A stretch of 64,000 bases of DNA, taken from the NCBI GenBank assembly GCA_020725865.1, contig DYEC01000012.1:1-64000 (forward strand), read 5' to 3'. The translations under genes and the position numbers were made by a program. The stretch comes from Anaerolinea sp. (GTDB lineage: Bacteria > Chloroflexota > Anaerolineae > Anaerolineales > Anaerolineaceae). This document shows positions 30,222-40,369 of this stretch, one piece after another (within the stretch, counting starts at the first letter, position 1; each line of letters begins with the position of its first letter). A model generated the notes under the pieces. That model ran no database searches and was not told the DNA's origin. It saw only the letters and a list, made by a program, of their open reading frames with translations.

Positions 30222-30305
30222 GGGGCGGTGGCGGAACAGGCAGACGCGACGGACTTAAAATCCGTTGGCCGTGAGGCCGTGTGGGTTCGACCCCCACCCG
30301 CCCTA
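30222..30305 (+). tRNA. tRNA-Leu (anticodon UAA)
   Basis: An 84-nt class II tRNA. Acceptor GGGGCGG pairs with CCGCCCT (G-T at the first pair). The anticodon arm is ACGGA-CTTAAAA-TCCGT with anticodon TAA, the long variable arm is GGCC/GGCC-type, the T arm is GTGGG-TTCGACC-CCCAC and the discriminator is A. CCA is not encoded. Confidence 0.95.
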
Positions 30306-30309
30306 CACC

Positions 30310-30361: not shown

Positions 30362-30808
30362 TCATGAGGCTTGTTGACCGAATATATTCACCAGGGCGTG
30401 AAGCGCAAGAGCGTAGGAATACCACCCAAAACCCGAGATTGTGCCTACGCAAACCGGGGCAATCAGTGAACGATTACGAAATTCCTCACGCGCTTGTGTG
30501 TTTGAGAGATGTACCTCAATAACCGGGATGTCCAGTGCTGCGATCGTATCTCGTAGGGCGACTGAGGTATGCGTGTAGCCAGCAGGATTAAAGACAACCC
30601 CTTTTGCCGATTGACCAGCTCGTTGCAGGACGTCGATCAATTCTCCTTCATAATTAGATTGCTTACATTCAACTTTTAGCCCTATAGAATTACCCAGTTC
30701 GATCAATCGCTGGTTAATCTCATCCAGGGAAAGATGTCCATAAATATCAGGTTCCCGTTTTCCGAGCAGGTTAAGATTGGGTCCATGTAGGACCAGTATC
30801 GGGATCAT
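30362..30808 (-). CDS. aroQ: Type II 3-dehydroquinate dehydratase
   Basis: A 148-aa enzyme of the dodecameric type II family, catalysing 3-dehydroquinate to 3-dehydroshikimate. The N-terminal LHGPNLNLLGKREPDIYG carries the catalytic-lid region, NPAGYTHTSVALRD the substrate loop, and EVHLSNTQAREEFR the conserved His. It is the last gene of the aromatic operon and starts inside the aroKB stop (ATGA). Confidence 0.96.
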   Translation of the reverse strand: MIPILVLHGPNLNLLGKREPDIYGHLSLDEINQRLIELGNSIGLKVECKQSNYEGELIDVLQRAGQSAKGVVFNPAGYTHTSVALRDTIAALDIPVIEVHLSNTQAREEFRNRSLIAPVCVGTISGFGWYSYALALHALVNIFGQQAS

Positions 30809-32394
30809 ATGAATATCTCCTCTATTGGAAGTTCATCCACGGCGAGATTTACACCCGTCTTAATCTGTCCAATATCAACAGGTAAGGCAAAGTTAATTCT
30901 GCCGCCTTTTTTCTTTTTGTCCACTTGCATAAAAGGTAAAAAGTCATCTTTTTTCATCTGCGCAGGTAAAGAAATTGGCAGTTTCCACGCTTTCAAGGGG
31001 ATCGCAATCATATTTGCGAGACCTTTTCGGGCGATGCCGAGTTTCTCTGCCAGACGGGTTTCGGCAACCATGCCAATCGAGACCGCTTCGCCATGCTTAA
31101 GTTGGTAGTTCGAGGCACGTTCAATAGCGTGTCCGATAGTGTGTCCGAAGTTTAATGCTGCCCGGATGCCTTGCTCGTAAGGGTCTTCCTGCACGTAGCG
31201 AATTTTGGTTGCCATTGCTTTAGATATTAATTTATTCCAAGCTGGTGTGTCGAGAAGAATATTTTTATTTGCAATTTTTATGCATTCCTCAAACAGGGTT
31301 GGGTTTGAGATGATCCCATGTTTAATAACCTCTGCCATGCCATTACGCAACTCGTCCTCGGGCAGAGTGCTCAGCACGAGTGGGTCAGCCAGAATCATGC
31401 TGGGTGGGTGAAATGCACCGACAAGGTTCTTTCCAGCGGGTAAGTCAATGGCAGTCTTTCCCCCGATACTGGCATCTGCCATGCCCAGCAAAGATGTTGG
31501 GATGGCTATCCAGCGGATTCCCCTCAGAAATGTAGCTGCAGCAAAGCCCGCCAGATCGGTCACAACCCCGCCGCCCAGCGCAATGATTGTGCTACCGCGC
31601 TCCAATCCTGCTTTCAGGAATTCCTCCCAAAGAAAGATCGTCATCTGGATAGTTTTTGATTGTTCCCCAGCAGGGATTGTCACTGTTGTCACCTGGTAGC
31701 CAGCCTGTTCAATGATTTTACAAACACGGAGGAGATAGAGCTTTCCTACATTCTCATCACTAACCAGCGTAACAGGCGACTTAAAGTTGCGTACTTGCAT
31801 ATCGTTTCCTAGCCGGGATAAACTCCCTGTCTGAACGCGAATATCATAGCCGCTGTTCATTCCAGTAACCCGAAATGCTCCGCCGGCAATCTCAATCTGC
31901 CAGACAATTTCTTCAGGTGTCAGATGAGTGGTATCAATTTGTAAATCAAAAGAGGTGTAGTGTTCTTGACGCTCAGTTAGGAGCCGCTTTAGACGCTGTT
32001 CCATGTCTGTGCTATTCCCAAGCAAGGGGCGATGGATGGTGTCGTATTGGAGTCTTTGCAATAGTGTCGCTTCGCTTGCATGAAGGCAAATGACTATACC
32101 TCGATTTTCAACAAAGGAGCGGTTTTCAGATCTGAGAAGCGCTCCACCGCCAAGAGCAATCACTATTCTTGATTCCTGACAGGCTTTTTTTAGGATCTCG
32201 GTTTCATATTGGCGAAAACGATTTTCACCGGCTTGTGAAAAGATTTCCGGAATCCGCTTTCCGGTTTCTTTTTCTATCTCCTCATCTAGGTCGAGGAACT
32301 TTAAATTGAGTGTCTTAGCCAGCAAACGGGCGACAGTGCTTTTTCCGCTTCCGGGTGGTCCATAGATGAAGAACTGGTCATTCGAATAGATCAT
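30805..32394 (-). CDS. aroKB: Bifunctional shikimate kinase / 3-dehydroquinate synthase
   Basis: A 529-aa fusion. Residues about 1-165 are shikimate kinase: Walker A GPPGSGKST near residue 13, DLDEEIEKETG for shikimate binding, and the ALGGGALL segment. From about 175 to the end it is 3-dehydroquinate synthase: GGGVVTDLAGFAA, the SLLGMADASIGGKTAID core, NLVGAFHPP and the metal-binding FGHTIGHAIE. The two activities are steps five and two of the shikimate pathway. A similar AroK-AroB order is known in Thermotoga. It overlaps aroC and aroQ by 4 bp each. Confidence 0.95.
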   Translation of the reverse strand: MIYSNDQFFIYGPPGSGKSTVARLLAKTLNLKFLDLDEEIEKETGKRIPEIFSQAGENRFRQYETEILKKACQESRIVIALGGGALLRSENRSFVENRGIVICLHASEATLLQRLQYDTIHRPLLGNSTDMEQRLKRLLTERQEHYTSFDLQIDTTHLTPEEIVWQIEIAGGAFRVTGMNSGYDIRVQTGSLSRLGNDMQVRNFKSPVTLVSDENVGKLYLLRVCKIIEQAGYQVTTVTIPAGEQSKTIQMTIFLWEEFLKAGLERGSTIIALGGGVVTDLAGFAAATFLRGIRWIAIPTSLLGMADASIGGKTAIDLPAGKNLVGAFHPPSMILADPLVLSTLPEDELRNGMAEVIKHGIISNPTLFEECIKIANKNILLDTPAWNKLISKAMATKIRYVQEDPYEQGIRAALNFGHTIGHAIERASNYQLKHGEAVSIGMVAETRLAEKLGIARKGLANMIAIPLKAWKLPISLPAQMKKDDFLPFMQVDKKKKGGRINFALPVDIGQIKTGVNLAVDELPIEEIFI

Positions 32395-33575
32395 ACGGTT
32401 TTACTTTCGCTCCAGAAAATGTGTTCATCACCGGAAAGTTTAAGGTCGTTTAGTCTTGCTTTTCGTAGTAGTTGATAGCGTGTATGCAAATCGGCCAGAG
32501 TGTCACCGCCGAGCTTTTCGAGCAATGCATCAGCTAAAACGAAAGCCAACATTGCTTCGACGATAACAACTGCGCGGGGTACCGGGCAGAAGTCAGAGCG
32601 TTCATATTTTGTGGTTGTCTCAATGCCAGTTAATAAATCTACAGACCGCTGGGGCGAGAGTGTGGTAGGAATAGGCTTCATTGCTGCTCGCACAATAATT
32701 GGAGAACCATTGCTTACGCCGCCTTCTATGCCACCGGAACGATTGCGAAGTCTGATAAGTTCATCTCCTTCCAGCGCAACTAGATCATGGCAGACGGTAC
32801 CTTTCAAACGTGAGTTTTCAAAAGCTGGTCCAATTTCGACACCTTTGATCGCCGGAATGCTGAGGATGGCCGCAGCAATCCGTGCATCGAGACGGCGGTC
32901 CCAGTGGACATAAGACCCCAATCCGGGCGGCACGTTCAAGGCAGCCGCTTCGATAATACCGCCCAGAGTATCTTTTTCTTGCATAATCTGGCGGATTGCC
33001 TGTTGCATTATTTGTGTTGCGTTTGGGTCGGGACAATGGATGTCGTTTTGGAGAGCAAGCCTGATGCGATCCTCCAGTGAAATATCTTCGAGTGAAGCAT
33101 TGATCTCACCGATGGCAGTAACATAACCGCCGATTTGAATTGAGAATTGCGCAAGGAATTGGCGGCAAACGGCGCCAATTGCAACTCTCGCGGCTGTTTC
33201 ACGAGCTGAAGCGCGTTCCAGAACGGGTCGCAGGTCATTAAACCCGTACTTGATTGCACCGGCTAGGTCAGCATGACCTGGACGTGGAATAGTTGAAGGA
33301 GGAATCGAGCGGTCTTTCCAACGTTCATGATCCAGGTTCTTAATCATGATAGCCAGCGGAGAGCCGATAGTTTTTCCTTCCATCACCCCGCTCAAGATTA
33401 CTGCCTGATCGTGTTCAATTTTCATACGCGCGCCAGCCCCAAGACCTTCTTGGCGGCGTGCCAAGTCTTGGTTAATCATTTGTTCTGTAAGCGGTAAACC
33501 AGCAGGCAAACCTTCCAGAATGGTAACCATTGCAGGGCCATGAGACTCACCGGCTGTTAAGAATCGTAGTGTCAT
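32391..33575 (-). CDS. aroC: Chorismate synthase
   Basis: A 394-aa FMN-dependent enzyme converting EPSP to chorismate, the last common step. Signatures are GESHGPA at the start, RPGHADLAG...DLRPVLERASARETAARVA in the middle, and the late RSGGIEGGVSNGSPI region. ATG 33575 is chosen over an in-frame ATG at 33587 because GGAAGGA directly precedes it and the resulting N-terminus MTLRFLTAGESHG is typical. It overlaps the aminotransferase stop as ATGA. Confidence 0.97.
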   Translation of the reverse strand: MTLRFLTAGESHGPAMVTILEGLPAGLPLTEQMINQDLARRQEGLGAGARMKIEHDQAVILSGVMEGKTIGSPLAIMIKNLDHERWKDRSIPPSTIPRPGHADLAGAIKYGFNDLRPVLERASARETAARVAIGAVCRQFLAQFSIQIGGYVTAIGEINASLEDISLEDRIRLALQNDIHCPDPNATQIMQQAIRQIMQEKDTLGGIIEAAALNVPPGLGSYVHWDRRLDARIAAAILSIPAIKGVEIGPAFENSRLKGTVCHDLVALEGDELIRLRNRSGGIEGGVSNGSPIIVRAAMKPIPTTLSPQRSVDLLTGIETTTKYERSDFCPVPRAVVIVEAMLAFVLADALLEKLGGDTLADLHTRYQLLRKARLNDLKLSGDEHIFWSESKTV

Positions 33576-34738
33576 TTTTCCTTCCATTTGCTTAAGCGAT
33601 CCATGGCTTCTGACAGTTTCTCAGTGGGAGAAGTCAGAGCGATACGGAAGTAACCTTCGCCAAATTGTCCAAATAAAGTGCCCGGAGTCAGGCTGACGCG
33701 CGCTTTCTCAAGAACATCTTCAACGAACTTTAGCGAAGTCCACCCTGCTGGCACAGAACACCAGACGTAAATCGTGGCGGGTGAACTCCATGCAGATAAA
33801 TTCAAAGCCTTTAATGCCTTAAGAACAACGTTTCGGCGCTGGTTATATATTTCATTACGCGCTTTCAGCCAAGACTCAGGTGTGGAGAGAGCTTGTGCTG
33901 CTCCATCCAGAATAGGGCGAAAGTGTCCACTATCCAGATTGGTTTTTAACTTTATTAAGGGCTTGATAATTTCAGTGTTTCCTACAATTACTCCTGTTCG
34001 CCATCCTGCCATGTTGTGAGATTTGGAGAGACTGTTAAATTCAACGGCGCACTCTATTGCGCCTTCAATTTGTAGAATGGATGGCGCCTGATAATCCTCG
34101 AAGCAAACCTGAGAATAGGATGCATCATGACAAAGGATGAGTTGATAATCTAGGCAGAATTGTACAGCTTGTTTTAAAAAATCCAATGGTGCGGTCGCAG
34201 TAGTGGGGTTGTTTGGGTAGTTTAACCAAAGCATTTTTGCCCGCTTTAACACTTCTTTAGGGATGGAGGTCAAATCGGGCAGGAAGGCGTTTTGCGGATG
34301 CAGGGCGAAGTAATAAGGCTTTGCACCTGCAAAAAGCGCACCACGCGCATAGGTCATGTAGCCAGGGTCTGGAACAAGTACAGTATCGCCGGGATTAGCC
34401 CAAGCCATCGTCAAATTAAAGATACCCTCTTTGGAACCAATCAATGGGAGAATATTCTTATTCTCATCCAGCAACACACCAAAGCGATCTCTATACATCT
34501 CAGCCCAAGCCTGCCTGAGCTTTGCCGTTCCGTTGTGTGGCTGATAGCCGTGATGATTCGGCTGTCTGGCGGACGAGCAAAGAACATTAATCACTTCAGG
34601 TGGTGGCGGCAAATCGGGCGACCCAATATCCAACCTGATAACATCGCCGCTTTGTGCTTGAATTGCAGCGATTTTGGTTTCCAATTCGGCAAAGAAATTG
34701 GTTGGGAGACGGTCAATGCGGGTGGATTGTCGTTTCAT
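33572..34738 (-). CDS. Class I/II PLP aminotransferase in the aromatic operon
   Basis: A 388-aa fold-type I aminotransferase. The PLP-binding lysine is in SLSKSHNMAGWR, the pyridine-interacting Asp region is CHDASYSQVCF, and the N-terminus has DIGSPDLPPP. It is close to the LL-diaminopimelate/aspartate-type aminotransferases. Lodged between aroE and aroC, it most likely transaminates phenylpyruvate, hydroxyphenylpyruvate or prephenate, but specificity cannot be read from sequence. Its start overlaps aroE by 26 bp. Confidence 0.9.
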   Translation of the reverse strand: MKRQSTRIDRLPTNFFAELETKIAAIQAQSGDVIRLDIGSPDLPPPPEVINVLCSSARQPNHHGYQPHNGTAKLRQAWAEMYRDRFGVLLDENKNILPLIGSKEGIFNLTMAWANPGDTVLVPDPGYMTYARGALFAGAKPYYFALHPQNAFLPDLTSIPKEVLKRAKMLWLNYPNNPTTATAPLDFLKQAVQFCLDYQLILCHDASYSQVCFEDYQAPSILQIEGAIECAVEFNSLSKSHNMAGWRTGVIVGNTEIIKPLIKLKTNLDSGHFRPILDGAAQALSTPESWLKARNEIYNQRRNVVLKALKALNLSAWSSPATIYVWCSVPAGWTSLKFVEDVLEKARVSLTPGTLFGQFGEGYFRIALTSPTEKLSEAMDRLSKWKEK

Positions 34739-35663
34739 AGGTCTCAGAGTTCTTTTGTTCAGGGTTAAACTGTTTCATAGCAAGTTGAAAAGCCTGCCTC
34801 ATGATTGCCCGTGGTGCCATGTATCCAGTCCATCGTTCAAATGCCAACGCTGCTTGTTCAATTAACATACCGCCTCCACTTCTGGCAGGCAGACCTTGCA
34901 GACGCGCAGATCGCATCAATGCAGTCTCAACGGGATTGTAAATTAAGTCATAAATGACAGACTTTTCGGGGAGCGGCAAGCCGAGGGGCCAGGGGGATAA
35001 TCTAATGTTGGGCCACATCCCAACAGGAGTTGTGTTAATAACGGCAGTTATGTCCTGCAGTTCAATCGTTCTTATCTCTGATATGCGTATAGCGTTTATA
35101 TTCTGTTTATCACTAATCTTATTGTGCCACTGGTTGACAATATTTTGAGCTTGTTCCAAATTTCTTGCTGCGATGATTATGTTCCAGCCCTCTTGAAGCA
35201 AACCGTACACAACCGAGCGAGCAGATCCGCCACCGCCGATAACCAGCGCTTGTGCTGGGATCGTCGTCTTCTGCCCGAAAGCGGATACAAATGCCTTGAA
35301 ATCTGTCAGAAAACCCTTAATGTCTGTGTTATCTCCAATAACTTGGCCGTCTCTCTGAAACAGGGTGTTCACTGCACCAACCTGACGAGCCTGTGGAGTG
35401 GCTGCATCTACCAATTCGAACATCAAGGCTTTATAAGGAATTGTGACATTCAGCCCGTGTATTATTCCTTCTCTGAGCTGTTGAAATAGCCTCTTGATTT
35501 CTGAGATCTTCTCTTCTGTGGGTTGGATTTCATAACAGGTATAAGTTCCCTTTAGGTTAAGGAACTCCAATGCCGCATGGTGGATTTGCGGGGATATAGA
35601 ATGCCCAAGCGGATAACCAATCAGACCAAACTTAAAGGGTTGAGGTGGTAATTTAGCTTTCAT
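34713..35663 (-). CDS. aroE: Shikimate dehydrogenase
   Basis: A 316-aa NADP-dependent enzyme reducing 3-dehydroshikimate to shikimate. The shikimate-binding serines are in GYPLGHSISPQIHH, the catalytic lysine in NVTIPYKALM, and a partner Asp in GDNTDIKGF. The nucleotide-binding loop is VIGGGGSARSVVYGL, and the C-terminal GGGMLIEQAALAFERWTG is intact. It is slightly longer than the common 270-290 aa. It follows aroA by 3 bp. Confidence 0.95.
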   Translation of the reverse strand: MKAKLPPQPFKFGLIGYPLGHSISPQIHHAALEFLNLKGTYTCYEIQPTEEKISEIKRLFQQLREGIIHGLNVTIPYKALMFELVDAATPQARQVGAVNTLFQRDGQVIGDNTDIKGFLTDFKAFVSAFGQKTTIPAQALVIGGGGSARSVVYGLLQEGWNIIIAARNLEQAQNIVNQWHNKISDKQNINAIRISEIRTIELQDITAVINTTPVGMWPNIRLSPWPLGLPLPEKSVIYDLIYNPVETALMRSARLQGLPARSGGGMLIEQAALAFERWTGYMAPRAIMRQAFQLAMKQFNPEQKNSETYETTIHPH

Positions 35664-35666
35664 TGG

Positions 35667-36998
35667 CTAATCCAAAACATCTGCACCTAAAGATTGCAGG
35701 ATGGATAAAAAATCTGGAAAGGATTCCGAAATGATTTGGACATCTTGAACAGTGATTGGCTTTTTGCTTGCCAACCCCATTACCATCATAGACATCGCCA
35801 AGCGATGATCCGCGTAAGGTTGAACTATTCCGTTTCCCGGTACATTACCGTTTGATTCGATGATAAAGCCATCTGGATTTTCGTGAATCACGATACCAAC
35901 TTTTTTGAATTCACGGCATAAGTCACCGATACGGTCAGATTCCTTATAGCGAAGTTCCTCAGCCCCTGTGACGGTGGTGACACCGTGTGCGAAGGCTGCT
36001 GCTACCGCGAAAATTGGGAATTCATCAATCATGCTTACAACTCTCTCGCCAGAGACGTCAATACCCTTCAAGGGGCTATGACGGACTTCGATATTACCAA
36101 CTGGTTCACCGGAAAGGGTTTGAACATTATGGATTTGGATGTTGGCACCCATTTCTAACAATGCATCCAACAATCCTGTTCGGGTAGGATTTAGTCCGAC
36201 GTTTTGGATAAGGATATGTGAACCTGGAACAATGAGTGAAGCTACAATGAGAAATGCTGCAGCAGAAAAATCTCCGGGAATGACCGCATGGATCGGTTCA
36301 AGCGCCTCATTGGGGGGCGGCGTGATTCTTACAGAATGGGCCCTGCCAGAAAATTTCTGTTCAATTTTTACACCCATTGCGCTGAGCAATCTCTCGCTAT
36401 GATCGCGAGATAGGAGTGGTTCACTTACAACAGAGGGAGCGGAAGCTGCCAAGGATGCCAAAAGTAAACAGGTTTTCACTTGAGCGCTGGCAACGGGCAA
36501 ATTGTAATGTAGAGGTGTCAGGAGCATACCGACGGGGCGTCCTTCCAATCGCAATGGTGCGCCTCCTTCAGCACTGGCAGTAATTGCTACCCCCATTTGT
36601 TGCAGGGGTTGAACAACACGTAGCATTGGACGTCTTCTCAGTCCATCTGAACCATCCAGCACGGCTGGAACGCCACTCGCTGCCAGCGCGCCAGTTAATA
36701 TGCGCATTGTCGTTGCAGAATTACCACAGTGAATTGTGTTTTTAGGTGTCTGAAAGCCTCGTATTCCGTTGCCTTTTATCCGCAGTGTGGTTCCTGTTAG
36801 TGAGTATGGTATTCCAAGCAGACTCAATGCGTGCAACATTGCATTGGTGACGCCTGAAACAAGGAAGTTTTCTACCAGGCTTTCACCTTTTGCTAGAGCA
36901 GCAAAAAGTGCCGCTCGGTGTGAAATGGATTTATCTCCAGGTATGGTAATGGTACCGCGCAATGGTTTGCCAGGCTTGACTGTAGAATTCATAAGCAT
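35667..36998 (-). CDS. aroA: EPSP synthase (3-phosphoshikimate 1-carboxyvinyltransferase)
   Basis: A 443-aa enzyme joining shikimate 3-phosphate and PEP. The N-terminal GDKSISHRAALFAALA contains the PEP/S3P-binding lysine and serine. The PEP loop reads GNSATTMR, with Ala95 where most sensitive enzymes have Gly (GNAGTAMR in E. coli). Further motifs are SDGLRRRPM, DEFPIFAVAAAFA and RYKESDRI. The Ala substitution is the feature known from class II glyphosate-insensitive enzymes such as CP4. A second in-frame ATG is at 36992. Confidence 0.96.
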   Translation of the reverse strand: MLMNSTVKPGKPLRGTITIPGDKSISHRAALFAALAKGESLVENFLVSGVTNAMLHALSLLGIPYSLTGTTLRIKGNGIRGFQTPKNTIHCGNSATTMRILTGALAASGVPAVLDGSDGLRRRPMLRVVQPLQQMGVAITASAEGGAPLRLEGRPVGMLLTPLHYNLPVASAQVKTCLLLASLAASAPSVVSEPLLSRDHSERLLSAMGVKIEQKFSGRAHSVRITPPPNEALEPIHAVIPGDFSAAAFLIVASLIVPGSHILIQNVGLNPTRTGLLDALLEMGANIQIHNVQTLSGEPVGNIEVRHSPLKGIDVSGERVVSMIDEFPIFAVAAAFAHGVTTVTGAEELRYKESDRIGDLCREFKKVGIVIHENPDGFIIESNGNVPGNGIVQPYADHRLAMSMMVMGLASKKPITVQDVQIISESFPDFLSILQSLGADVLD

Positions 36999-37008
36999 AA
37001 GTCTACTT

Positions 37009-37881
37009 TCAGGTGGTATATTGTAAAAGCTCTTTTTGGTGGTTCGCGCCGCTCAATAGCTTTTGGTTTAAGCCATCAGCGTTTTCTGTTTGCAATAATG
37101 TTTCCAGAACATCAAGCTGGCTGCGGAAGTGTGCCAGCGCTTGAAGGATGTTTTGTTTGTTGGTCAGCAAAATGTCCAGCATGATGGACGATGGCGTAGC
37201 TGCAATTCTTGTCATGCTTCGAAAACCTGGTCCGATCAGTATTGCGGCTTCGCTGGGAGTGGCTGCTGCTAATGCATTTGATATCAGATAAGGCATATGG
37301 CTGGTTGCGGCAGTCCATGTATCGTGTGTTTCTGCGCTCATCCAGATATCTTGAGCGCCGATAATGCGTAAAAGCTGCTGAGCCATTCTGATGGCGCGTG
37401 TGGTTGTGCGTGCTAAAGGCGTCAGAACAAATGCTGCGTTTTTGAAAAGCGTTGCTTCAGCAGCTTCCAAAGTTCCTTTTTCTTTCCCGCAGATGGGATG
37501 TCCTCCAATGGGGTCAAATCGCTCTGGCAATTGATTCAATGCATGAACGATTTGAGCTTTTGTGGAGCCTGTATCCAGTATCATTGCATTTCCGGGATGC
37601 AGAGATGGCAGTTGATACAGTATTTGTAAGATGGTGCGCACGGGTGTAGCCAGAATGATGAGCTCTGCTTCTGGCAATACATTTTCTGCTTTTGTGTCCG
37701 CTTCATCAACGATTCGCATTTCTCTAACCCGATGGATAGTTGCCTGATCAATATCACAACCGATGAGCTTTTTACATGAGCCGTGTAGCGCCATGGCTAA
37801 TGAGCCTCCAATCAAACCTAAGCCTACGATTGCGATGGTTGTTTCTGAAATTGGCTTAAAAAACCCATCTTCCTCTGTCAT
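37009..37881 (-). CDS. tyrA: Prephenate/arogenate dehydrogenase
   Basis: A 290-aa NAD(P)-dependent dehydrogenase giving hydroxyphenylpyruvate or tyrosine. The N-terminal Rossmann motif is [31 protein letters not shown] carries the catalytic histidine, and the helical C-terminal dimer domain lacks any ACT extension. Absence of an ACT domain fits regulation at the operon level by the leader. It overlaps aroF as ATGA. Confidence 0.95.
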
Positions 37882-38954
37882 TCTACCCTCTGCGAAAGCG
37901 GGATTTGAATCTGAGTAGCAGAAGTTTGGGGTGTAGCTAGATCACGCCCGATTGCTTGAGCGATTGCTTTGATTTGAGCGACCAATTCTGCAAATCGTTC
38001 AGGCTTTAGGCTTTGCGCACCATCCGAGAGAGCCTGTTCTGGGTTATGATGAACTTCTACAATCAAACCATCTGCGCCGGCGGCAATTGCTGCTCTGGCA
38101 ATAGCTGTTACATATTGCCAATGTCCTGTACTATGGCTGGGGTCCAAGATGACTGGCAAATGAGAAAGAGATTTCAATACGGGGATGGCGTTAATGTCAG
38201 TGGTGTTTCTTGTTGAGGTTTCAAAGGTGCGGATGCCGCGTTCGCACAAAATAACCCGCCGGTTGCCATGTGAAAGAATATATTCGGCAGCCATAAGTAA
38301 TTCCTCAATAGTGGCACTGATACCGCGTTTAAGCAGAACGGGTTTCTGGCTTTCTCCTGCTGCGTGTAGGAGGGTGAAATTTTGCATGTTGCGGGCACCA
38401 ATTTGCAAAACATCTGCATAATGAGCAACCAACGGAACCTGTTCCGGAGCCATTACTTCTGTTACCACCGGCAAGCCTGTGATTTCACGGACTTCAGCGA
38501 GCACCTCCAGGGCTACTTCGCCTAAACCCTGAAAGCTGTATGGAGAAGTGCGAGGTTTGTAAGCTCCACCGCGTAGCGCATGGGCGCCGGCTTCTTTGAC
38601 CGCCTGGGCTATTTCGAGAGTTTGGTTACGGCTTTCTACGGAACAGGGTCCTGCGATGATAACGATTCCCTGCCCGCCAATAGAAACTCCGTCTAGGGGA
38701 AAAACTGTATCCTGAGGACTAAATTCGCGGGAGGCAAGTTTATACGGACGGGAAATAGGGACGATCCGATCAACTCCTGGCATTCTGATAAACAAATCCT
38801 GGTATTGCAGAGCGACTTTTCCCTCCCCGATGGCACCAATAACTACCCTCTCTTCACCTTGGGAAAGGTGTGCTCCAAGTCCGACTGAGGCAATCCGGTC
38901 TATCACCTGATCAACTTCTTCGGGTTTGGCATCTGTTTTCATGATGATTAACAT
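37878..38954 (-). CDS. aroF: 3-deoxy-7-phosphoheptulonate (DAHP) synthase, type I-beta
   Basis: A 358-aa enzyme committing PEP and erythrose 4-phosphate to the pathway. An N-terminal ferredoxin-like regulatory domain (about 1-70, [18 protein letters not shown]) resembles the Thermotoga enzyme, in which it mediates Tyr/Phe feedback inhibition. The TIM-barrel catalytic part has [44 protein letters not shown] and [10 protein letters not shown]. Its start overlaps aroH by 7 bp. Confidence 0.96.
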
Positions 38955-39343
38955 TTAGGAACCTCCTTTTTCGTTGTTGTTTGGGTAAATTCTGGGCGAA
39001 GACTTGCTGCTTCTCCGAGGTAGACGTGAGTAATTTCGTTTTGTGCTAGTTCTGTATTCCATAGCAAGAGAACGCGAATACAGCGTTTGAGGCTGTTAGG
39101 CACCGGAATTTCCTGCGCGCACATGAGTGGAACCAAATCCCAGCCCATTTGTCGAGCGGCCTGTGCCGGGAAAGCCGTTTTCAGGTCGTTAGTTACGGTA
39201 AAGAGCACGCCAGCAAGGTCAGCGGGATTCAGTGTAGGGTTTGATTTATTAATTTCATGTAAAAGTTGACGTGTAGCTGTAAGTATTTCTTCTGGCGTGT
39301 CCTGTTGGACGGTAGTAGCACCTCGAATACCACGTACAAACAT
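38948..39343 (-). CDS. aroH: Chorismate mutase, AroH class
   Basis: A 131-aa trimeric-type mutase converting chorismate to prephenate. The active-site arginine is in RGIRGATTV at the N-terminus, with VLFTVTNDL and the C-terminal arginine region [10 protein letters not shown] also typical. ATG 39343 is preferred over an ORF start at 39358 because GAGG lies 6 nt upstream and the N-terminus then matches the family. It is the first structural gene of the aromatic operon, 17 nt downstream of the attenuator stem. Confidence 0.95.
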
Positions 39344-39356
39344 AGTTAACCTCTGC

Positions 39357-39392
39357 AAATAAAAAACTGCGGTGCCGTTGTGGCACCGCAGT
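39357..39392 (-). terminator. attenuator terminator of the aro operon
   Basis: On the minus strand, a perfect 11-bp stem ACTGCGGTGCC / GGCACCGCAGT (39392-39382 and 39376-39366) closes a 5-nt loop ACAAC. It is followed at once by TTTTTTATTT. It lies between the leader ORF and aroH, so it acts inside the transcript rather than at an operon end. It is the off-state hairpin of the attenuator. Confidence 0.92.
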
Positions 39393-39477
39393 CTGAATAA
39401 GTCCTAAAATCCAAATCCCGCTAAACACCACAAACGGCAAAGGTGAAGATTTTGCCGTAAAAGTAATAATAGCGGGA
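39373..39477 (-). promoter_or_regulatory. alternative pairing segments (antiterminator) of the aro attenuator
   Basis: Segment 1, ACGGCAAA (39458-39451), pairs perfectly with TTTGCCGT (39441-39434). Segment 2, TGCCGTTTGTGG (39439-39428), instead pairs with segment 3, CCACAACGGCA (39383-39373), over 11 bp with one bulged T. Segment 3 covers the terminator loop and part of both arms, so 2:3 pairing excludes the terminator. An outer pair TCCCGCTA (39477-39470) with TAGCGGGA (39423-39416) surrounds the 1:2 hairpin. A ribosome stalled at Tyr/Phe codons would mask segment 1 and free segment 2. Confidence 0.85.
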
Positions 39478-39501
39478 AAAGAAGCGTGCGCTAAGTTTCA
39501 T
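39421..39501 (-). CDS. aro operon leader peptide, Phe/Tyr-rich
   Basis: A 26-codon ORF that translation tracks miss because of its size. Five Phe (7, 8, 14, 19, 21) and four Tyr (11, 12, 13, 15) codons occur among 26, with the run FFSRYYYFY at 7-15 and no Trp. The stop TAG lies 29 nt before the terminator stem. The ATG at 39501 is only 10 nt downstream of the predicted -10 box and has no Shine-Dalgarno sequence, so it would sit within a few nt of the transcript 5' end (leaderless translation). Position, composition and the overlapping pairing segments make this the sensor of a Phe/Tyr attenuator. Confidence 0.9.
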   Translation of the reverse strand: MKLSARFFSRYYYFYGKIFTFAVCGV

Positions 39502-39511
39502 TGTTGGGTTT

Positions 39512-39540
39512 AGTTTAACAAAGTCCTGAATAAATGTCAA
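39512..39540 (-). promoter_or_regulatory. sigma70-type promoter of the aromatic operon
   Basis: A perfect -35, TTGACA (39540-39535), is followed after exactly 17 bp by TAAACT (39517-39512). A TGn extended -10 lies directly before the hexamer. The predicted start of transcription is near 39505, just ahead of the leader ATG. Confidence 0.75.
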
Positions 39541-40297
39541 TAGGATTTTCCCGAAATTCATGAAGACTTTTGTCCAGAACTCAGGCTTTTCATGGCGTTT
39601 GAGATTTTAATTTTTGTTGGGTTTTTTTATCACTTTCCAACCCATGGGGGATTGGTCCAATAAGATAATCAATTTAGAGTTGTAGAACAGTGAAGAAATA
39701 AAAGAATGTTCTCCAAGGCGAGAGCTCCTCTAAATAATCCCCCTCGGCGACCATTTTACCCCCTAACCTCTGTATACAATTAATGAGTCTGGCGTTTTTT
39801 ACATCATTACCAGTGGTTGGTGTGCTGGTGTGCTTTATCCGATTTGCCTACCCCGTTTATTGAAACTGAGGATGTAGTGGCAACCCTATACTCTGATTCG
39901 GACCTACGGAAATCAGCCGACGGCGCCACTCATCACATGTCTGATTTCCTAACCAGAATTGTGGTTTTGTCTCAAAATGATGCAGGTATGTTAATGAGCG
40001 CGGTTGGATCACTGAAATTGTGTCAGGTGGCGGATCCTGCTAAAACAACCCGCTTTAAGTTTCCCAAAGCGATTCTGCGTCGGCTTGGTTTTTCAATGCC
40101 GGAGCAAGTTTTTACTTTCTAAATCAATTGAATTTGTACCTCATCCCGATAATTCTTAATTCTTTGTTCTTGCCCAAGTTTTGCAGAGCCTTTTAGTTTA
40201 CATATCATAACCCGAGAGCAAAACCTGTAAAAGATAATCGCCGTCAGCTTCCATACTGGCGGCGAATAGAATAACACATAACATTGACTCCCCTGAG
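39541..40297. other. gene-poor stretch upstream of the aro promoter
   Basis: About 750 bp with no gene that can be supported. A TTG-started frame at 39817-40122 (+) encodes 101 aa with no recognised motif, no ribosome-binding site and a stop close upstream. It could be a decayed gene. The first half is AT-rich with poly-T and poly-A runs. No long repeats, tRNA or terminator structures were seen apart from the flanking promoter and tRNA. Confidence 0.5.
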
Positions 40298-40369
40298 TGA
40301 GTGCGGGGAGGCTCGAACTCCCAGCCAATGGCTTAAAAGGCCACTGCTCTACCATTGAGCTACGCACCC
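40298..40369 (-). tRNA. tRNA-Lys (anticodon UUU)
   Basis: A 72-nt tRNA. Acceptor GGGTGCG pairs with CGCACTC (one G-T), the D arm is GCTC/GAGC, the anticodon arm is GTGGC-CTTTTAA-GCCAT with anticodon TTT, the T arm is GGGAG-TTCGAGC-CTCCC, and the discriminator is A. CCA is not encoded. Confidence 0.95.

Follow-up and report, generated by a model that had tools for sequence, protein, structure and literature searches.

The leader of a nine-gene aromatic operon in Anaerolinea sp. is very probably a ribosome-mediated transcription attenuator that senses Phe- and Tyr-tRNA. The leader and the operon lie on the minus strand of a stretch of 64,000 nucleotides (contig DYEC01000012.1, positions 1 to 64,000), which was analysed as a whole and is referred to below as the window. 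This reading draws on the anatomy of the leader, its conservation, its covarying helices, the modelled stalling geometry and the fit of the sensor codons in related leaders to the genes behind them.

Anatomy of the leader and its operon

The following elements were located between the promoter and the first structural gene.

39512..39540, minus strand: sigma-70-type promoter, with TTGACA at 39540-39535, a 17 nt spacer and TAAACT at 39517-39512 (10 of 12 matches)
39421..39501, minus strand: leader ORF MKLSARFFSRYYYFYGKIFTFAVCGV, 26 codons with 5 Phe and 4 Tyr and no Trp
39457..39483, minus strand: sensor codons 7-15 (FFSRYYYFY) within the leader ORF
39477-39470 with 39423-39416, minus strand: outer helix of the MFE fold, between the sensor-codon side and a segment that includes the stop codon
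39458-39451 with 39441-39434, minus strand: inner 1:2 hairpin, ACGGCAAA/TTTGCCGT, 8 pairs
39439-39426 with 39385-39373, minus strand: putative antiterminator 2:3, pairing with the 5′ arm, the loop and the start of the 3′ arm of the terminator
39392-39366, minus strand: intrinsic terminator 3:4, ACTGCGGTGCC-ACAAC-GGCACCGCAGT, 11 pairs, followed by a run of six T at 39366-39361

The promoter, the ORF with its nine Phe/Tyr codons, the perfect 11-bp terminator with its T run between the ORF and aroH (39392-39361) and the perfect 8-bp hairpin of segments 1 and 2 were all present as an earlier note on this DNA had described them. Its account of the 2:3 helix was partly right. The helix does overlap the arms and loop of the terminator, but it is not a clean 11-bp duplex, as the window leader, modelled with a stalled ribosome, forms 13 pairs there, two of them G-U, and leaves one U bulged. 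The earlier note had missed the outer helix, and also that the leader ATG (39501) falls just 10 nt past the -10 box. With this distance, and with no Shine-Dalgarno sequence seen before the window ORF, the ORF is probably leaderless. A second in-frame start exists at 39561, but it is upstream of the TTGACA/TAAACT promoter.

The window leader RNA folded at -55.9 kcal/mol (z = -7.8, 200 shuffles), and the aroH ATG at 39343 is 22 nt past the terminator stem. A script that scanned both window strands, treating nested starts as separate, returned 3276 ORFs of 10-60 aa from start to stop codon. Six distinct ORFs among them counted as Phe/Tyr-dense, with 5 or more Phe/Tyr in 9 codons; of these six, MKLSARFFSRYYYFYGKIFTFAVCGV alone had a strong terminator within 95 nt past its stop.

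Nine genes follow the terminator, with junctions of -26 to +10 nt between them.

38948..39343, minus strand: aroH, chorismate mutase, first structural gene (TIGR01796, 145 bits, cut-off 82)
37878..38954, minus strand: aroF, DAHP synthase (TIGR01361, 396.7 bits, cut-off 267.75)
37009..37881, minus strand: tyrA-like prephenate dehydrogenase, named by resemblance (best NCBIfam matches below cut-offs)
35667..36998, minus strand: aroA, EPSP synthase (TIGR01356, 384.7 bits, cut-off 287.25)
34713..35663, minus strand: aroE, shikimate dehydrogenase (TIGR00507, 203.8 bits, cut-off 200.2)
33572..34738, minus strand: aminotransferase, perhaps aromatic (LL-DAP aminotransferase subfamily NF006756, 478.9 bits, below the cut-off of 507)
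32391..33587, minus strand: aroC, chorismate synthase (NF003793, 425.7 bits, cut-off 321)
30805..32394, minus strand: aroK-aroB fusion (TIGR01357, 378.6 bits, cut-off 305)
30362..30808, minus strand: aroQ, type II dehydroquinate dehydratase, last gene (TIGR01088, 192.4 bits, cut-off 169.85)

The aromatic role of the aminotransferase is suggested by its position in the operon, and in the fusion, the first 170 residues matched shikimate kinase models below cut-off. Prephenate dehydratase is encoded elsewhere in the window's genome, and trpE was not found there at the threshold used. The operon and its promoter are flanked by tRNA genes, tRNA-Leu (taa) just past the operon end (window 30222-30306, plus strand) and tRNA-Lys (ttt) upstream of the promoter (window 40297-40369, minus strand).

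Conservation and distribution of the leader

The earlier note had made its reading depend on conservation of the leader ORF and the alternative stems in close relatives, and the ORF proved to be conserved. In a sample anchored on AroH and chosen independently of the leader (61 genomes, of which 32 had AroH, the window's own included), a Phe/Tyr-rich leader preceded the first gene of the aroH/aroF unit in 31 of the 32 AroH genomes. It was directly upstream of aroH at 27 of 30 loci, and also in G030 and G014. One of the 27 (L015) had missed the scripted filter and was counted after reading by eye. In G027 and G004 aroF precedes aroH, and the leader was found before aroF. No leader was seen in the stretches examined of G055, where aroH follows a trpS-like gene (identified by eye). 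Leader lengths in the carriers among the AroH genomes ranged between 20 and 37 aa.

A similar picture was obtained from titled genomes, with at least 80 AroH loci among the matches listed. Among these, the ORF was present at 39 of the 46 loci labelled Chloroflexota, 29 of the 39 leaders having a scripted terminator and two of the seven misses having less than 200 nt upstream; loci with other labels, many of them Planctomycetes, had the ORF in 1 of 34 cases. Among the carriers are genomes with the titles Anaerolinea thermophila, Leptolinea and Herpetosiphonaceae.

We also searched with a covariance model of the 27 leaders (R2), an approach whose counts are tied to the model and leave out divergent leaders. 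At E ≤0.01 and with strict filters, R2 matched 86 of 396 genomes of the class and 43 of 400 of the phylum. All 30 class loci fetched (L032-L061) had aroH or aroF on the leader strand, and 65 of the 75 weaker matches fetched had one of these genes at most 2 kb downstream. The other ten weaker matches were five leaders of a Thr/Met type, two before pheS (L065, L139), two that reach the contig end (L076, L089) and one before ABC-transporter genes (L140). Run at E ≤10 on the window's own genome, R2 returned five weak matches, and by eye none was a leader. A second model, R3, covered the 3′ half of the switch. Of ten R3 matches examined, three were leaders, namely the aro leader of G012 and a pair in G014, and inspection by eye discounted the remaining seven. 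Apart from G051:C8, the other strong R3 matches fall at the coordinates of known aro or aspartokinase leaders.

AroH was present in 108 of 201 genomes of the phylum. A model-free sample outside the class comprised 53 AroH loci from 26 families, about one per genus. The leader ORF was found at eight of these loci, namely in families f82 (4/4), f92 (1/1), f118 (1/1), f121 (1/1) and f85 (1/3), and at none of the eight loci each in f87 and f88. A miss says little at loci where aroH is not the first gene.

The close spacing of promoter and start codon recurred in related leaders. In 18 of the 27 leaders the best promoter match preceded the start codon by 5-12 nt (mean of 3.6 in shuffles that kept base composition only), and in 16 of the 27 a match in this range scored at least 9 of 12 (shuffles mean 0.22, maximum 2). 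The test was extended to 62 of the 75 leaders found by covariance model, leaving out the five Thr-type loci and those in which the match did not begin with a start codon or was preceded by less than 80 nt. Start codons are less certain in this set, in which the best match was in the 5-12 nt range for 22 leaders (shuffles mean 8.5), all 22 scoring at least 9 (shuffles mean 0.46). Shine-Dalgarno-like sites preceded only 2 of the 27 leaders, whereas 23 of the 27 aroH genes had one.

Covariation and duplex tests

The helices were assessed on an unfitted MAFFT alignment (A1, without L013, L016 and L021, in which aroH is internal), and on a 73-sequence alignment (A3); a further alignment (A4) comprised 21 leaders. 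The terminator is the most strongly covarying element of the leader, with changes on both sides at eight of nine consensus pairs. In the 73-sequence alignment, which was fitted to the 1:2 and 3:4 helices and leans towards them, 94.9% of the cells pair, a value reached in none of 500 shuffles. The distance from stop codon to terminator was 22-35 nt across the 27 leaders.

In the outer helix, native pairing in the 27 leaders was stronger than that of swapped partners (p 6.8e-5) and of shuffles (p 1.9e-7). For the inner 1:2 stem, covariation on A1 was reached by none of 500 shuffles, and an alignment-free test on the 27 leaders was not significant (p 0.49 and 0.07).

Sequence comparison gave modest support to the 2:3 antiterminator, significant but weaker than that for the terminator and the outer helix. 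Across the 27 leaders, the 2:3 duplex was stronger than shuffles (Wilcoxon p 1.9e-7) and than duplexes with swapped terminators (p 0.0019). Taken singly, just 9 of the 27 duplexes had a z below -1.65, that of the window being -1.5. On A1, its covariation score was reached by 10 of 500 shuffles and its percentage paired by 20 of 500. On A3, where 2:3 was outside the fitted structure, covariation was 0.165 vs 0.132 and was reached by none of 500 shuffles, while the percentage paired was reached by nine of 500. When the partners on A3 were slid by +3 columns, the percentage paired was higher than for native 2:3 (86.2% vs 79.2%), but over 289 rather than 571 cells and with lower covariation.

The proposed switch

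Conservation in 31 of 32 genomes, the covarying terminator and outer helix and the 2:3 tests against shuffles and swaps uphold the pheA/trp-type logic that the earlier note had read into the leader. The switch would work as pheL and trpL do in E. coli. We infer that the ORF is translated and that termination and read-through respond to charged tRNA as follows. Transcription would begin at the leader ATG or a few bases ahead of it, which would let a ribosome following RNA polymerase load directly on the leaderless ORF. With ample Phe-tRNA and Tyr-tRNA, the ribosome would reach the stop codon and cover segment 2, the terminator would form, and transcription would therefore end before aroH. When either is scarce, the ribosome would stall on the FFSRYYYFY codons and open the outer and inner 1:2 hairpins. 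The freed segment 2 could then pair with the 5′ arm and loop of the terminator before the 3′ arm is made, and RNA polymerase would read into the nine-gene operon making chorismate, prephenate and tyrosine. If no ribosome is present, the long 1:2 hairpin and the terminator would form.

This geometry was modelled with the ribosome footprint taken as reaching 12 nt from the A-site codon. When the ribosome occupied the last sensor codon, RNA extending to the terminator loop could form the antiterminator in the model and folded at a median of -25.1 kcal/mol in the 27 leaders. When the ribosome had reached the stop codon, the antiterminator could not form and the median was -5.6 kcal/mol. The two states differed by more than 5 kcal/mol in all 27 modelled leaders.

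A weakness of the proposed switch is the equilibrium preference for the terminator in the modelled stalled state. Coordinates were usable for 26 leaders (L028 was left out). Once the whole terminator was made, its probability in that state was at least 0.85 in 25 of these and 0.14 in L004. Since the completed terminator wins at equilibrium in nearly all leaders even when the ribosome is stalled, the outcome must be decided kinetically, as is generally accepted for attenuators of the leader-peptide class.

Leader-peptide attenuators are characterised by a short leader ORF with a run of cognate codons, an intrinsic terminator between this ORF and the first gene, and a mutually exclusive antiterminator. 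Counterparts of all three are predicted in the window, the last from the duplex tests. The class is further characterised by a geometry in which a stall frees segment 2 and arrival at the stop codon covers it, as the model predicts for 27 of 27 leaders, and by downstream genes that make or charge the sensed amino acid; the shikimate operon here includes a chorismate mutase gene and a prephenate dehydrogenase-like gene.

Sensor codons and downstream genes

The 27 aro leaders contain 105 Phe and 101 Tyr, amounting to 206 of 663 residues (31%). Both amino acids were present in all 27, and nine leaders also contained Trp. Whether aro leaders with Trp codons go together with possession of trpE was checked by eye, and no convincing link emerged.

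The R2 matches L065 (in G439) and L139 (in G397) were found before pheS-pheT, and their leaders have Phe and lack Tyr. The pheS genes scored 304 and 309.8 bits with TIGR00468 (cut-off 237.45); the pheT frames were cut by the locus end and scored below cut-off. After these two matches, 26 genomes were hand-picked for a pheS search, 20 of them from family f49 and six from others, and 23 of the 26 had pheS. Among the 17 f49 genomes with pheS, ten had a Phe-dense ORF and a terminator upstream of it; none of the six non-f49 genomes with pheS, the window's genome included, had a Phe-dense ORF there. The densest nine codons of the ten f49 pheS leaders comprised 54 Phe and 1 Tyr, whereas those of the aro leaders of the same ten genomes comprised 41 Phe and 26 Tyr. 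Fisher's test gave p 3e-7 for this difference, though the genomes are related and not independent. One of these aro leaders (L076, in G409) is weaker evidence, since its contig ends after the leader, which is identical to that of G439. The contrast supports, as a natural control at the level of sequence, attenuation that senses Phe- and Tyr-tRNA.

Five R2 loci had a Thr/Met-rich short ORF, e.g. MFEQRDSWMTTTMMTTTPKRVAVASS, before aspartokinase and aspartate-semialdehyde dehydrogenase genes (L062/L145, L074/L146, L064/L147, L083/L149 and L098/L148), with a similar 3′ RNA architecture. Both gene names were confirmed by NCBIfam at L147. These leaders represent a predicted Thr/Met attenuator in Anaerolineae. 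At the aspartokinase loci of relatives, a Thr/Met-dense ORF was accompanied by a scripted terminator in 6 of 29 and stood alone in some others; the script detected no Thr leader before the aspartokinase of the window's genome. The 3′ halves of the Thr/Met and Phe/Tyr leaders align, which may reflect either a common origin or convergence imposed by identical pairing rules.

Alternative explanations

A T-box, or another riboswitch for uncharged tRNA or a metabolite, could govern the terminator and leave the small ORF incidental. T-boxes do occur in relatives, where the Rfam model (RF00230) matched at gathering score before trpE at 5 of the 10 loci searched (L180, L182, L183, L184 and L190). The leader itself had no RF00230 match, and a T-box identity was rejected; cmscan at E ≤10 returned chance-level Rfam matches only, e.g. 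L20_leader at E 7.3. Moreover, the promoter and terminator of the window are separated by just about 150 nt, more than half of which is taken by the ORF, and the Phe/Tyr content of the leaders is kept across very different sequences and shifts with the downstream gene. A riboswitch is thus extremely unlikely. No Trp leader was detected for trpE, there being no Trp-run ORF (at least 4 Trp in 8 codons) at 12 trpE loci, and none by eye in 11. With T-boxes before trpE and leader peptides before the aro genes, Trp synthesis and the aro operon would use different tRNA-sensing devices in related genomes.

Alternatively, the 26-codon ORF could encode a small functional protein, with the terminator marking the unregulated end of its own gene. 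Such a role would agree with the conservation of the short peptide, and a trans-acting leader peptide, peTrpL, is described in the available text of PMC7298713. However, the peptides of distant leaders share mainly the aromatic run and vary outside it, the spacing between ORF and terminator is kept, and the residues track the pathway, with Thr/Met before aspartokinase, Phe before pheS and Phe plus Tyr before the aro genes. We consider a functional peptide very improbable. It is somewhat easier to imagine that the leader acts mainly via translation or Rho, or that it mainly senses a general slowdown of translation, as the antiterminator was not favoured at equilibrium once the terminator was complete. 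Against a translational or Rho-dependent role, the terminator is the strongest covarying element, and the Shine-Dalgarno-like site at aroH, present at 23 of the 27 loci, is outside the terminator in the window; a sensor of general slowdown is not expected from gene-specific sensor codons. We therefore regard this explanation as unlikely and favour attenuation by Phe- and Tyr-tRNA.

Relation to known attenuators

By sequence features, the closest analogue of the window leader appears to be AroR of Corynebacterium glutamicum, a leader with Phe-Tyr-Phe before the aroF operon at which ribosome stalling raises transcription (PMC11802643, as far as its available text goes). Both leaders, by description, join Phe and Tyr codons before a DAHP synthase operon. 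The actinobacterial AroR differs in having Phe-Tyr-Phe where the window leader has nine sensor codons, and the same review text reports that AroR responds to Phe and not to Tyr. Since AroR already joins Phe and Tyr codons before aroF, the novelty that the earlier note had claimed for a dual Phe/Tyr leader does not hold. On the other part of the claim, no published case of a leader-peptide attenuator in Chloroflexota was found in the open-access literature, in so far as its text was available. Two papers treat Chloroflexi, attenuation and leader peptides together (PMC4833913, PMC9413887), and their available text describes no such attenuator in Chloroflexota. The statement that known examples are mostly proteobacterial needs correction, with attenuators also reported in Actinobacteria and Firmicutes in the available parts of PMC2965389 and PMC9413887.

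In E. coli, pheA and pheST are controlled by leader-peptide attenuation through charged Phe-tRNA (PMC11802643, available text). The leader-peptide mechanism is shared, and pheST has its counterpart in the Phe-rich leaders of family f49; unlike the E. coli leaders, which precede Phe-branch or synthetase genes, the window leader precedes the common pathway. The uORFC-13-1 motif of Acholeplasma is a Phe-coding uORF beside an intrinsic terminator, upstream of aroF. It differs in being known from 24 sequences of Acholeplasma and environmental origin, for which the available description states at least one Phe codon and mentions no Tyr run (PMC8632094). Leaderless leader-peptide ORFs, whose start codon is also the first codon of the transcript, are described in the available text for Streptomyces lividans (PMC8079986) and Sinorhizobium meliloti (PMC7298713). 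These belong to other phyla and are Trp, Leu, Ile, Met and Thr leaders, none of those described there being Phe/Tyr.

The present leaders would extend leader-peptide attenuation to Chloroflexota, as a broad and easily testable RNA family that is absent from Rfam, and would give Anaerolineae a predicted control point over a whole biosynthetic pathway. Together with the T-boxes at trpE, they point to two tRNA-sensing strategies in related genomes.

Variation and duplication of the leaders

There is an even chance that the leaders represent a reusable, often leaderless attenuator chassis in Chloroflexota, in which one set of helices is kept, the sensor codons are swapped for each gene, and the whole is copied to extra aroF units and to pheA. 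Its variants would be Phe plus Tyr ahead of the shikimate operon, joined by Trp in some lineages, only Phe ahead of pheST, and Thr/Met ahead of aspartokinase-asd. If the leaders share descent, they would form a modular regulatory family absent from Rfam. As Phe, Phe plus Tyr and Thr/Met leaders were reached through one RNA model, the evolution of sensor specificity in attenuators becomes directly testable.

Leaders before prephenate dehydratase were found at just 1 of 30 loci, and no Phe/Tyr-dense ORF was found before the prephenate dehydratase gene of the window's genome. G031 has a second Phe/Tyr leader, MKNVQAYSFYFYFAAYGFISMLRAGRD, before pheA and in tandem with the aroH leader (L008:247-388). 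In G014, two near-identical Phe/Tyr leaders (L390; C143:35343 and 36777) each precede a DAHP-synthase-like frame, the first frame being read as DAHP synthase by eye and the second being cut by the locus end. The sequence suggests duplicated aroF units, each with its own attenuator. At L140 (G195:C16), a Phe/Tyr-rich leader precedes genes for a SsuA/TauA-like ABC transporter with matches below cut-offs, possibly an uptake system under the same Phe/Tyr control. The leaders L092, L111 and L120 lie directly before DAHP synthase genes without aroH. L111 and L120, which come from distant families, have Trp beside Phe and Tyr, and their codon content makes three-way aromatic sensing possible.
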